A DNA stretch of 44,881 bases from contig NZ_FYEK01000007.1 of NCBI RefSeq assembly GCF_900187885.1, forward strand, positions 1 to 44,881, written 5' to 3'. The notes below the pieces were generated by a model, which worked only from the letters and a program-made list of their open reading frames with translations, did no database searches and had not been told where the DNA came from. Positions 39,545 through 43,701 of this stretch are shown piece after piece. The position numbers and the translations under genes are program-made. Each line of letters starts with the position of its first letter. Position 1 is the stretch's first letter. This DNA is from Thermoflexus hugenholtzii JAD2 (GTDB taxonomy: Bacteria > Chloroflexota > Anaerolineae > Thermoflexales > Thermoflexaceae).

Positions 39545-40024
39545 TCACCACGGCATCCAGGGATGAGCGGCGCCATCCGGGGCGATGAGGTAGAGGGTCA
39601 ACGGCCCCGTCCGGGCGCCGCCCATCCCGGGGGAGCCCGGCGGCATGCCGGGGAGGGCGATCCCGAGGGCCGAGGGGCGTTCCGCCCACAGGCGGGCGAT
39701 GGCCTCCACCGGCACGTGGCCCTCGACCGCATACGGACCGATCCGGGCCGTGTGGCAGCTCCACATCGCCTCCGGGATCCCCCATCGCCGCTTGAGGGGC
39801 TCCAGGTCATCCTGCTCCACCACGTGGACCGCGAGGCCATGGCCCCGGAGATACCGGACATATTCCTCACAGCAGCCACAGGTGGGGGTCTTGTAGACGG
39901 TGATCACCTCCCCGCCCAGCCCGCCCGGCGGACGCGCCGGGGCGGAGGTGCCGCATCCTGTGAGGATGAGAATTCCGAGAATACCGAGCGCCAGGCCGCG
40001 CCCTCCGATCCCCCGAATGGACAT
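39545..40024 (-). CDS. DUF411 metal-binding lipoprotein
   Basis: 159 residues from ATG 40024 (GGAGG 7 nt upstream; ATG at 40051 has none). A lipoprotein signal ends in the lipobox LTGC (Cys24). The mature part is DUF411: KTPTCGCCEEYVRYLRGHGL, EAMWSCHTARIGPYAVEGHVP, ARLWAERPSALGIALPGMPPGSPGM. The CGCC and the later Cys/His are the expected metal ligands. DUF411 proteins are found with copper (or other soft metal) resistance systems. It is last in the CsoR-CopZ-(thioredoxin-like)-CopA operon and likely captures copper outside the membrane. Confidence 0.88.
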   Translation of the reverse strand: MSIRGIGGRGLALGILGILILTGCGTSAPARPPGGLGGEVITVYKTPTCGCCEEYVRYLRGHGLAVHVVEQDDLEPLKRRWGIPEAMWSCHTARIGPYAVEGHVPVEAIARLWAERPSALGIALPGMPPGSPGMGGARTGPLTLYLIAPDGAAHPWMPW

Positions 40025-40061
40025 GGTGCACCTCCGCAAGATGTCCGCCATCTACCTCCCC

Positions 40062-42497
40062 TCAGCCCCGGAAACCACGCAGGCGCAGGGAGTTGGTCAC
40101 CACGAAGATGGAGGAGAACGCCATGGCCCCCGCGGCCATCATCGGATGGAGCAGACCGAGGGCCGCCACCGGGATCAGGATCACGTTGTAGAAGAAAGCC
40201 CAGAACAGGTTCTGGCGGATGGTGCGCATGGTGCCCCGGGAGAGGCGGATCGCCTGGGGCAGCAGGCGCAGGTCCCCCCGCATCAGGGTGACATCGGCTG
40301 TTTCCATCGCCACCGCCGTGCCGGTCCCCATGGCGATCCCCACATCGGCCTGGGCCAGGGCGGGGGCATCGTTGATGCCGTCCCCCACCATGGCCACCCG
40401 ATGGCCCTCCGCCTGCAGGCGGCGGACGATCTCCGCCTTGTCGCCGGGCAGGACCTCGGCGAAGACCCGGTCGATGCCAGCCTGCCGGGCGATCGCCTCC
40501 GCGGTGCGCCGGTTGTCGCCGGTGATCATCACCGTCTGGACCCCCAATCGGTGGAGGGCGGCGACGGCCTCCGCCGCCTCGGGCTTCAAGGCGTCGGCCA
40601 GGGCGATCACCCCGATGGCCTCCCCATCCCGGGCCACGAGCATCGTGGTCTGGCCCTGCTCCTGAAGCGCCCGGGCCGCCTCCTCCAGCCCGTTGAGGCG
40701 CACCCCCTCCGCCTGCAACCAGGCGATCCCGCCCACCCGGATGGTGGTGCCGTTCAGGTGGGCCTGCACGCCGCGGCCGGGCAGGGCGGAGAAGCCAACC
40801 GGCTTCTCCAGCGGGAGCCCTTGGGACCGGGCCGCCTCCACCACGGCCTGGGCCAGCGGATGCTCACTCCCCTGCTCCACGTTGGCGGCCAGCCTGAGGA
40901 CCTCCTCCGCGGTCCATCCCGGGCCCGGGATCACCCGGGTGACCATCGGGCGTCCCCGGGTGAGGGTGCCGGTCTTATCCAGAGCGATCAGGGTGATCTT
41001 CCCCAGCTGCTCCAGGGCCTGGGCGTTGCGGAAGAGGATCCCCATCGTCGCCCCCCGGCCGGTGCCCACCATGATCGCCGTGGGGGTGGCCAGGCCCAGC
41101 GCGCACGGGCAGGCGACCACCAGCACGGCGATGGCGTTGACCATCGCCCGGGTGAAGCCGGCCCCGCCGATCAGCAGCCAGCCCAGGAAAGCCAGCGCGG
41201 CGATGGCGATGACCGTGGGGACGAAAACCGCCGAGACCTGATCCGCCAGCCGCTGGATGGGGGCTTTGCTCCCCTGCGCCTCCCGGACCAGCCGGATGAT
41301 CCCGGCCAGCACCGTGTCCCGCCCGACCCGGGCGGCCTCGATCTTCAGCAGGCCATATGTGTTGACCGTGCCCCCCAGCACCCGGTCCCCTGGCTTCTTC
41401 TCCACGGGGATGGACTCCCCGGTCATCATGGATTCATCCACCGCGGAGCGGCCCTCCAGGACGATGCCGTCGGCCGGGATGCGCTCGCCGGGGCGCACGA
41501 GGAGGAGATCCCCCACCCGGACCTCGGCGGCGGGGATCTCGACCTCCCGGCCGTCCCGCAGGACGCGAGCGCGTTCCGGCTGCAGGGCCATCAGGGCGCG
41601 GATGGCCTCACTCGCTCGCCCCTTGGCCCGGGCCTCGAGATACTTCCCGAGGACGATCAGAGTAATGATGACCGCGGCGGTCTCGAAGTAGGTGTAGCGG
41701 CCGAGGGCGGTGCTCCCCAGAAGGAGGGCGACCGTCACGGCCAGGCTGTAAAAGTAGGCCGCGGAGGTGCCCAGGGCCACCAGCACGTCCATATTGGCCG
41801 TGCCCATCCGCAACGCCCGGTAGGCCCCGCGGTAGAAATCCCAGCCCACGCCGAACTGGACCGGGGTGCTGAGGAGCAGCAACAGCACATCCAGACCCAT
41901 GGGCCGGGCCATCCCGGGCATGACGTTGTGGAGCAGGTCGAACTGCATGCTCAGCCAGAAGGTGGGCAGGGTGAAGACGAGCCCCCAGAGGAGGCGGCGG
42001 CGCTGGCGGGCCATCTCCGCTTCCCGGGCCGCCTGCTCGGCGTCCCCGCCTGTCTCCTCCAGCGCCCCCGCCGCTTCTACCACCTCATAACCGGCCTCCC
42101 GGACCGCTCGGATCAGGTCACGGACCGAGGCCACGCCGACGATCATCGTGACGCGGGCGCTTTCCGTCGCCAGGTTGACGGCCGCCTCCAGCACGCCGGG
42201 GATGCGGTGGAGGATCCGCTCGATGGCCTGGGCGTCGTTCGCGTCGGCCATCCCCCGGATGGGCAGCTCCACCGTGGCGGTGGCGACCTCGTAGCCGGCG
42301 GCCCGGACGCGCTCCACCGCCTGGCGGAGGTCCGCCGCGGAGGGGTCGAGGAGCACCACCGCCTGCTCGGCGGCGAAGTTCACCGAGGCCTCCACCACCC
42401 CGGGCGCCCGCTTCAGGGCCCGCTCCACCGTCCGGGCGCAGTTGGCGCAGGTCATGCCGATGATCGGAAGCACCACCTCCTGGGGCGCAGCTGTCAT
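40062..42497 (-). CDS. copA: copper-exporting P1B-type ATPase
   Basis: 811 residues. The first heavy-metal domain has GMTCANC (Cys17, Cys20). The second (about 75-145) keeps the HMA fold but its motif reads GMADAND, Asp at both Cys places (Asp85, Asp88). Then eight membrane helices, TGES (actuator), CPC in [13 protein letters not shown] (metal site), [11 protein letters not shown] (phosphorylation), SEHPLAQAV (HP motif) and [10 protein letters not shown]. This combination marks Cu(I) export. The gene is preceded by csoR, copZ and a thioredoxin-like lipoprotein, and followed by DUF411. Confidence 0.95.
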
Positions 42498-42583: not shown

Positions 42584-43078
42584 TCAGCGGGTCGCCCGGC
42601 GCAGCATCTCCTCCACCTGCTCCGGCGTCGTATCGTGCCCGAAGCTACGCCAGATCACCGTTCCCTGGCGGTCGAGGACCACCAGCCCGTGGGTGCCGGG
42701 CATCCCGAAGCGGCGCAACAGCGCCTGGCCCTCCCGGGTGTCCGCCCGCACCTCGAAGAACTCCACGTCCCCTTCCCAATGTGGTCGCAGCGCCTGCACG
42801 AGGCGCGTGTTGCGGGCGCACACCGGTCAGCCGGGCAGGACGAAGTTGTAAAGGGCGGCGCGGGGGCGCGGCGTCGGCGTCCCCGTCACCGTCGGGGTCG
42901 GGGCAGGCGTCGGCGTCTGCGTCGGGATGGGGATCGGCGTCTCCGTCGGGGCAGGGGCGGCGGTCGGCGTCTCCTGCGGGAGCGCGGGGACGGGGGTGGG
43001 CGATCCCGCCATCCCGCCCGCGCACCCGACCAGCCCCACCACCCCGATCATCCACAGCCATCGCCAGATCCTTCGCAT
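42584..43078 (-). CDS. thioredoxin-like lipoprotein, candidate selenoprotein (U-P-V-C active site, TGA read as Sec)
   Basis: 164 codons if the in-frame TGA at 42827-42829 is decoded. From ATG 43078 (AGAGGGGGG upstream): basic start, hydrophobic helix and lipobox VGCA (Cys19), then a ~50-residue Thr/Pro linker, then a thioredoxin-like domain. This begins [10 protein letters not shown]84-P-V-C87 and goes on [44 protein letters not shown] and [10 protein letters not shown]. The reading frame after TGA stays open with full fold sequence. TGA takes the place of the first Cys of CxxC, as in known UxxC selenoproteins. A 6-bp hairpin lies 21-37 nt past the TGA. If not recoded, two fragments result. 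Redox or copper-thiol role inferred. Confidence 0.72.
42790..42806 (-). promoter_or_regulatory. candidate bacterial SECIS hairpin for the TGA at 42827-42829
   Basis: GCGCCT and AGGCGC form a perfect 6-bp stem with loop CGTGC. The loop starts 26 nt after the TGA and its second base is G, which fits the known geometry of bacterial SECIS elements inside coding regions. It is short, and high GC makes chance hairpins common, so it supports but does not prove recoding. Confidence 0.45.
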
Positions 43079-43119: not shown

Positions 43120-43329
43120 TCAGGCGCCGGCGGGCGGGTAGCCGATCTCGTGGAGGACGGCCACGATCCGGTCCCAGGTGGCCGGCGGCTCGAAGGACAC
43201 CGTCACCTGTCGCGTGGCCACGTCCCCGTGCACCTCCCGCACGCCCTCCAGGGCCTTCAGCTCGCGGGCGATGGTCTGGACGCAGTGATGGCAGGAGATG
43301 TTCGGCGCCACGAAGGTCCGGGTCTCCAT
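43120..43329 (-). CDS. copZ: copper chaperone CopZ-like heavy-metal-binding protein
   Basis: 69 residues forming one HMA domain: TFVAPNISCHHCVQTIARELKAL with Cys13 and Cys16, then GVREVHGDVATRQVTVSFE and VLHEIGYPPA. The metal loop is ISCHHC in place of the more usual MTCxxC. CopZ carries Cu(I) in the cytoplasm to CopA. It follows csoR by 15 nt. Confidence 0.9.
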   Translation of the reverse strand: METRTFVAPNISCHHCVQTIARELKALEGVREVHGDVATRQVTVSFEPPATWDRIVAVLHEIGYPPAGA

Positions 43330-43344
43330 CGTTCACCTCCGGGA

Positions 43345-43623
43345 TCAGATTTTCTGGGCGGCCTCGAAGACCTCCACGATCTCCTCCAGCACCCGCTCCC
43401 GCTCCTCGGGGTCCTCGCCGCGGATGGCGGTGGTGACGCAGGCCCGCAGGTGCTGGGCCAGCACCAGGTCGTTGACCTTGGCCAGGGCCCGCTGCACCGC
43501 CTGGATCTGGCGGATGATGTCGATGCAGTAGGCGTCCTCCTCCACCATCCGGGCGATCCCCTCCACGTGCCCGGCGACGCTGCGCAGGCGCCGCAGGACC
43601 TCCGCCTTCGTCCTGGCCTCCAT
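43345..43623 (-). CDS. csoR: copper-sensing CsoR-family repressor
   Basis: 92 residues from ATG 43623 (GGAGGAG 6 nt upstream). Four-helix CsoR signature: LRRLRSVAGHVEGIARMVEE, AYCIDIIRQIQAVQRALAKV and LAQHLRACVTTAI. Cys33, His58 and Cys62 make the Cys-His-Cys Cu(I) site. CsoR leaves DNA on binding Cu(I), derepressing copZ and copA. A strong promoter (43673-43701) and a GC palindrome (43643-43663) lie just upstream. It differs from the second CsoR-like gene at 20755. Confidence 0.9.
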   Translation of the reverse strand: MEARTKAEVLRRLRSVAGHVEGIARMVEEDAYCIDIIRQIQAVQRALAKVNDLVLAQHLRACVTTAIRGEDPEERERVLEEIVEVFEAAQKI

Positions 43624-43672: not shown

Positions 43673-43701
43673 ATCTTACCCCCGGGCGGCCTCCCTGTCA
43701 A
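43673..43701 (-). promoter_or_regulatory. promoter of the copper operon
   Basis: TTGACA (43696-43701), a 17-bp spacer and TAAGAT (43673-43678), minus strand, 50 nt before csoR. It is followed at once by the palindrome, so a bound repressor would block initiation or escape. Confidence 0.8.

Follow-up and report, generated by a model that had tools for sequence, protein, structure and literature searches.

Thioredoxin is a small redox protein, and thioredoxins with selenocysteine (Sec, U) in a UxxC active site are well known as a kind of selenoprotein. Few Cu(I) ligands are stronger, and few reductants faster, than selenolates. Thermoflexus is a hot-spring bacterium of the phylum Chloroflexota, the selenoproteome of which is, to our knowledge, hardly described. 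The accessible part of the 2026 selenoprotein inventory (PMC13188914) includes selenoproteins of the 2Fe-2S CopZ family and of a Cu/Zn efflux transporter. It also gives a rule for the bacterial SECIS: a loop of 3–9 nt, a stem of 4–16 bp, G in the first two loop positions, a distance of 16–37 nt from the UGA and a minimum free energy of at most −7.5.

Two thioredoxin-fold proteins already have a tie to extracytoplasmic copper. TlpA, which is anchored in the membrane, reduces ScoI and CoxB, and Sco binds copper via CysXXXCysXnHis on a thioredoxin fold (PMC6696091). A cis-proline is frequent but not universal in the thioredoxin-fold class (PMC2757866), and according to Su et al. 2007 (as cited in the accessible part of that paper) it keeps the thiolates of thioredoxin-family proteins from binding metal.

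The UGA codon and the selenium machinery

The window, which is the whole stretch of 44,881 nucleotides analysed here, holds a predicted Sec-thioredoxin lipoprotein in a copper operon (Table 1). The single in-frame TGA of the gene is codon 84 (42829–42827), at the first active-site cysteine position, and the gene's own terminal stop is again TGA, following the C-terminal end RRATR. By sequence comparison, a lipobox-like Cys is common to all six Thermoflexus orthologues. The sequence-only reading had placed the TGA at the first cysteine of a CxxC motif to give U-P-V-C, with one frame running from the lipobox and linker before it to the thioredoxin-like domain after it; both points hold on the minus strand.

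Table 1. Features of the copper operon and of the Sec-thioredoxin gene, in window positions
Feature	Positions	Strand	Basis or remark
csoR, metal-sensitive repressor	43345..43623	(-)	Pfam PF02583, 90 bits
copZ, HMA copper chaperone	43120..43329	(-)	Pfam PF00403, 53 bits
copA, Cu(I) P-type ATPase	40062..42497	(-)	Pfam E1-E2_ATPase, HMA and hydrolase domains; CPCALGLA motif
DUF411 lipoprotein, CGCC motif, possible partner	39545..40051	(-)	Pfam PF04214, 82 bits
Candidate sigma-70-like promoter TTGACA-17-TAAGAT, 5′ of csoR	43673..43701	(-)	Consensus scan; not evidence of function
Sec-thioredoxin lipoprotein gene	42584..43078	(-)	164 aa with U84, terminal TGA included; translation with TGA=U
Lipoprotein signal peptide, lipobox L-V-G-C, Cys19	43022..43078	(-)	Sequence
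Low-complexity linker rich in Pro/Thr	42857..43021	(-)	Sequence; tandem repeat finder
Thioredoxin-fold domain	42587..42856	(-)	AlphaFold2 model; matches to PDB thioredoxins
Sec UGA codon (U84), active site U-P-V-C	42827..42829	(-)	Invariant in six species, terminal stops vary
SECIS hairpin GCGCCU-CGUGC-AGGCGC	42790..42806	(-)	Loop start at +27 after UGA; +21 to +37
His130 codon, thioredoxin cis-proline position, GMPGTHG	42689..42691	(-)	Alignment to 2lst; model; orthologues

Orthologues occur in five other Thermoflexus genomes at 73–92% identity, each with one TGA at the same codon, so the TGA is invariant at the Sec position in six of six. Their terminal stops are TGA, TGA, TGA, TAG, TAA and TAA. 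This variation is an internal control: what is conserved at the Sec position is TGA itself rather than any stop codon. Coding conservation flanks the TGA on both sides in the other five copies, and dN/dS 3′ of the UGA is 0.23 and 0.25 in two comparisons. There is no Cys form among the six proteins of the Thermoflexus group. Distant homologues carry U or C at the Sec position, the Cys being found only in distant thioredoxins (18 Cys-type matches), and none of the homologues stops there.

The host genome (3.2 Mb, 78 contigs, 97.7% complete), whose selenoproteome was sampled by searches, carries a tRNA-Sec with a UCA anticodon (78 bits), SelA (559 bits), SelB (323.6 bits, pieces joined) and SelD (379 bits). 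The selenium genes that the sequence-only reading depended on, selA, selB, selC and selD, are thus all present. Across the Sec-positive genomes, SelB is above its cut-off in nearly all, the exceptions being incomplete or fragmented assemblies. Lost Sec machinery was rejected as the explanation for the Cys forms, as genomes with Cys forms (G123, G227 and others) carry SelB. The host's selD is itself Sec-encoding, its in-frame TGA falling in the motif CAGU (L017, G000 C12:58065-59000); its SECIS loop is CGTGC as in the Sec-thioredoxin gene, but at +33.

One other reading takes the TGA as a true stop, in a pseudogene or between two short ORFs, the first a truncated lipoprotein and the second 79 aa long. 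A GTG start at 42823 directly past the TGA does open that 79-aa ORF, and one Thermoflexus genome (G003) has no such gene at all. Against it, the codon is TGA and never TAA or TAG in six species, the part 3′ of it is under purifying selection, the SECIS is conserved and covarying, and the Sec machinery is complete, which leaves a true stop very improbable. Still more improbable is a sequencing error or a TGA decoded as tryptophan, for neither of which was any support found. The sequence-only reading had itself allowed for a TGC or TGT misread as TGA, but six independent assemblies concur, one of them (G004) a single contig, and one codon is not expected to be hit in all six. Tryptophan is opposed by other operon genes that end in TGA. 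With the machinery present and both the TGA and the hairpin conserved, the latter with covariation, the candidate put forward by the sequence-only reading gains support, and on sequence grounds the window gene almost certainly encodes a selenoprotein.

The hairpin downstream of the UGA

The stem pairs 42806–42801 with 42795–42790 (6 bp) around a loop at 42800–42796 (5 nt, G second), at −9.0 kcal/mol. It begins exactly 21 nt past the TGA (20 nt between), and the spacing from UGA to loop is 26 nt. Stem, loop, G and start are as the sequence-only reading described them, and the hairpin fits the published bacterial SECIS rule, as given in the accessible part of PMC13188914, on every criterion. Taken by itself, however, the hairpin was judged insufficient: when the peptide is recoded synonymously, 24% of the recodings satisfy the loose rule, and 0.7% give a CGTG loop at +27 on a stem of 6 bp or more. 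It rises above chance because the TGA is invariant in the six genomes and the hairpin covaries in distant genera.

Within the six species, all 7 degenerate codons over the stem are without synonymous change, versus 28 of 61 elsewhere (P=0.007). At codons 1–14, 12 of 13 degenerate codons are unchanged, versus 23 of 55 (P=0.0009).

A wider comparison took 25 thioredoxin-type Sec genes, one from Thermoflexus and 24 from other genera of the class. Counted from the first TGA, the CGTG loop begins at +27 in 23 of the 25, and at least five of the six stem pairs form in 24, the exception having the same loop one codon further on. Over the 24 sequences, stem cells are paired at 96.5% and each of the six pairs varies at both of its positions. 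Cells with two-sided changes number 26 against 5.1 in shuffles, the signal is reached by none of 500 shuffles, and sliding the pairing partner abolishes it. By these comparisons, the hairpin 3′ of the UGA is the predicted SECIS of the gene.

The idea that Cys homologues are without the hairpin holds only in part, as six of 16 form at least five pairs (5–6 pairs), perhaps through peptide constraint on the sequence. Stems at +27 are weak in four UxxU genes of one genus and in two UxxC genes. Five UxxC thioredoxin genes (L202–L206) have a GGTT loop instead of CGTG at +27, and their hairpins may represent a second type of SECIS.

A covariance model of the SECIS makes two convincing matches in the host genome, the window gene being one at 37 bits. 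The other, at 42 bits, is a membrane-anchored Sec-thioredoxin with NY-U-LGC (G000 C44:185623; L207 position 1501), found by the RNA model alone with the protein sequence unused. Gene callers cut Chloroflexota selenoproteins at the UGA, and the CGUG loop at +27, as a SECIS rule of the lineage, could reveal more of them.

Copper genes and the double-selenocysteine relatives

The gene order in the window is csoR-copZ-Sec-Trx-copA-DUF411, so the gene lies between copZ and copA as first proposed. The order csoR-copZ-Sec-Trx-copA is common to the host genome, G004, G008, G001 and G005. The contig of G002 starts at the Sec-thioredoxin gene with copA behind, and in G006 and G007 copA stands at contig ends. 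In Thermoflexus G003 (93% complete; L213) the operon reads csoR-copZ-copA-DUF411; it contains a gap of about 200 bp but no trace of the Sec-thioredoxin gene. The gene is an accessory part of the operon, because G003 has the operon without it. From the conserved gene order, it very probably belongs to the copper pathway. The CopA of the window has lost the CxxC of its second HMA domain (GMADANDA).

A class-wide search with the thioredoxin domain over 396 genomes gave distant thioredoxin-fold proteins, many with a TGA at the active site. By an improved profile, about 40 of the 396 genomes encode lipoproteins in which two in-frame TGAs give U-x-x-U and the cis-proline loop reads GHP. Such UxxU-GHP lipoproteins are found across Anaerolineae (L083–L106, L147–L185), often beside CPC-, CPH- or CPD-type copper ATPases. 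That all the neighbouring ATPases are CopA was rejected, several being CPH (CopB-type) or CPD pumps.

A CopA/CopB-type ATPase, CopZ, CsoR or DUF411 lies within 4 kb at 22 of 50 UxxU loci, or at 21 without the SPC pump; the ATPase at L160, whose motif is SPC, was not taken for a copper pump. The same count is zero for 50 control thioredoxins (32 other Sec and 18 Cys), a contrast with a Fisher probability of 2e-8, kinship not being allowed for. The controls came from the same searches in stretches up to 14 kb, many of the contigs being short. At L163, L167, L170, L176 and L179 the UxxU gene lies between copZ and copA as in the window, and several other UxxU loci adjoin cupredoxins or c-type cytochromes.

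In a tree of 91 columns, the five copZ-copA UxxU proteins form one group and the six Thermoflexus proteins another. The tree can neither link the two groups nor place Thermoflexus, the stem branch of which is 2.5 changes per column. The copZ-copA slot of the five distant loci may reflect shared ancestry or independent recruitment.

The searches also gave Sec-thioredoxins with UGSC or UGAC and a VGQP or VGRP loop in one genus (g40) and its relatives (L189–L197), with CGSC counterparts in G158 and G292. Tandem thioredoxins occur at L086 (UPIC, then UPYC) and at L188 (UEVC, then CPFC).

Fold, proposed function and known systems

AlphaFold2 with a 57-row alignment gave a complete thioredoxin core at pLDDT 93, superseding a poor model (pLDDT 80) from the six close rows only. 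In domain numbering, the model has a strand at 2–6, a helix at 11–27 with the Sec at its start, a strand at 33–37, a helix at 41–49, strands at 57–61 and 67–71 and a helix at 78–89. The best structural matches in the PDB are thioredoxins (TM 0.78–0.82; Z up to 13.8); the best matches listed by VIA-align are thioredoxins with no Sco among them, which excludes nothing.

His130 (domain His56) directly precedes the strand at 57–61. By alignment to 2lst, it stands at the cis-proline place before the third strand, where the window protein has no proline, and it is invariant in the six orthologues. The full thioredoxin-like fold of the sequence-only reading is thus borne out as a fold, but an unusual one with histidine for the cis-proline. 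A His in the cis-proline loop is shared by the copper-linked proteins, as GTHG in Thermoflexus and GHP in the UxxU group, and of the remaining Sec and Cys thioredoxins of the class that were examined, none has a GHP loop.

The window domain is below every Pfam and NCBIfam thioredoxin cut-off, without a PF00085 match, and the protein reaches no Pfam or NCBIfam cut-off for TlpA, DsbE or ResA. Against NCBIfam 20.0, no model cut-off is reached by it or by the UxxU relatives tested. Five UxxU relatives tested exceed the PF00085 gathering cut-off.

We propose that tRNA-Sec and SelB would read the UGA under the SECIS hairpin, giving the active site Sec84-Pro-Val-Cys87 in a lipoprotein attached to the membrane at its outer face. 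There, outside the cell, it would work as a fast reductant or isomerase based on Sec, as TlpA reduces Sco and CoxB. It could reverse disulfide formation driven by copper and maintain reduced thiols in extracytoplasmic partners that bind copper, the operon's DUF411 lipoprotein being a candidate partner. No dedicated electron donor was identified for it. Judged from the signal and the gene neighbourhood, the protein probably functions outside the membrane, in copper handling. The whole account of a selenoprotein that is a copper-operon member and an extracytoplasmic Sec-based reductant is, in our judgement, somewhat probable, with its last part, reductant rather than copper carrier, about evenly poised.

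The chief other reading is a Sco-like selenoprotein, in which the Sec84 selenolate, the Cys87 thiolate and His130 would make a Cu(I) site, with the protein as a carrier or buffer of copper outside the membrane; in the UxxU-GHP relatives, the ligands would be two selenolates and a His. The invariant His at the cis-proline position is more in keeping with a metal site than with a plain reductase, whose substrate binding it would alter, and the loss of a proline said to preclude metal binding fits as well (Su et al. 2007, cited in PMC2757866). So do the GHP in the corresponding loop of the copper-linked UxxU group and its absence from the other Sec and Cys thioredoxins examined, and the His of the host's Sco, two positions earlier in the same loop. 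However, the spacing is that of CxxC and not of the CxxxC by which Sco binds copper on its thioredoxin fold, the GHP proteins keep the proline itself, and at L221 and L223, which have the GHP loop, the stretches examined contain no copper marker within 4 kb. The reductant is slightly favoured because its UxxC spacing and fold are reductase-like and a true, canonical Sco is already in the genome, so that the Sco-like reading is tentative, at perhaps one chance in three. By analogy with Sco, both roles may hold.

The protein might also serve as an extracytoplasmic Sec-thioredoxin of general use, its position in the copper operon having no copper-specific meaning. Many other Sec-thioredoxins of the class are away from copper genes, and for 28 of the 50 UxxU genes the stretches examined show no copper marker within 4 kb. 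This is hard to square with the copZ-copA slot shared by Thermoflexus and five distant loci and with the strong copper-gene enrichment over related controls, counted irrespective of kinship, and we consider it unlikely. A broader form of the Cu(I)-binding reading is doubtful but worth stating. Anaerolineae would have evolved extracytoplasmic thioredoxin-fold copper proteins that bind Cu(I) via Sec and the cis-proline-loop His and were recruited to copper operons, possibly repeatedly; with Sec and Cys in Thermoflexus and two Sec in the UxxU-GHP proteins, these would be selenolate carriers or buffers.

The sequence-only reading knew of no description of a link of selenium to copper handling. This needs narrowing, as the inventory already lists copper-linked selenoproteins, although its accessible part has no entry matching the window family (PMC13188914). 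Searches of open-access papers on Thermoflexus or Anaerolineae selenoproteins turned up no mention of this family of Sec-thioredoxins either. With this gene comes an unnamed selenoprotein family for which the comparative evidence is unusually good, and a way into a larger family, the double-selenocysteine thioredoxin lipoproteins in Chloroflexota. By their sequences and neighbours, the double-Sec relatives beside copper genes point to an unrecognised link of selenium to copper defence and make it testable whether cells employ selenolates in copper handling.

Among described selenoproteins, the UxxC thioredoxins (PF00085), thiol:disulfide interchange proteins (PF13098) and redoxins (PF08534; all in the accessible part of PMC13188914) share the fold, the UxxC and an in-frame bacterial SECIS with the window protein, which differs in being a lipoprotein of a CsoR-type copper operon, in its His for the cis-proline and in falling below all NCBIfam and Pfam cut-offs. 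The Rcas_1661 family (seleno)lipoprotein NF041057 is also a thioredoxin-like selenolipoprotein, but its match is weak (13.2 bits, cut-off 190) and covers the signal and linker only. The Prx-like thiol:disulfide oxidoreductases with UxxC or UxxU (PF00578) have UxxU forms too, but are AhpC/TSA, whereas the UxxU relatives here are PF00085. The 2Fe-2S CopZ-family selenoprotein and the SO_0444 Cu/Zn efflux transporter likewise have Sec in a copper-associated protein, in other folds and families.

Among copper proteins, TlpA of Bradyrhizobium japonicum is also a membrane-anchored thioredoxin and acts in copper-site assembly, but it is a cysteine enzyme and the window protein misses the NCBIfam TlpA and DsbE models. 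Sco1/SenC (PF02630) is alike in its extracytoplasmic thioredoxin fold, two chalcogen ligands with a loop His before strand 3, and copper context. The window protein differs from it in having UxxC and not CxxxC, in the absence of PF02630 from its Pfam matches and in the His offset by two positions: the Sco of the same genome has CPDVC and, in the loop, INHT, its His two residues earlier than His130.
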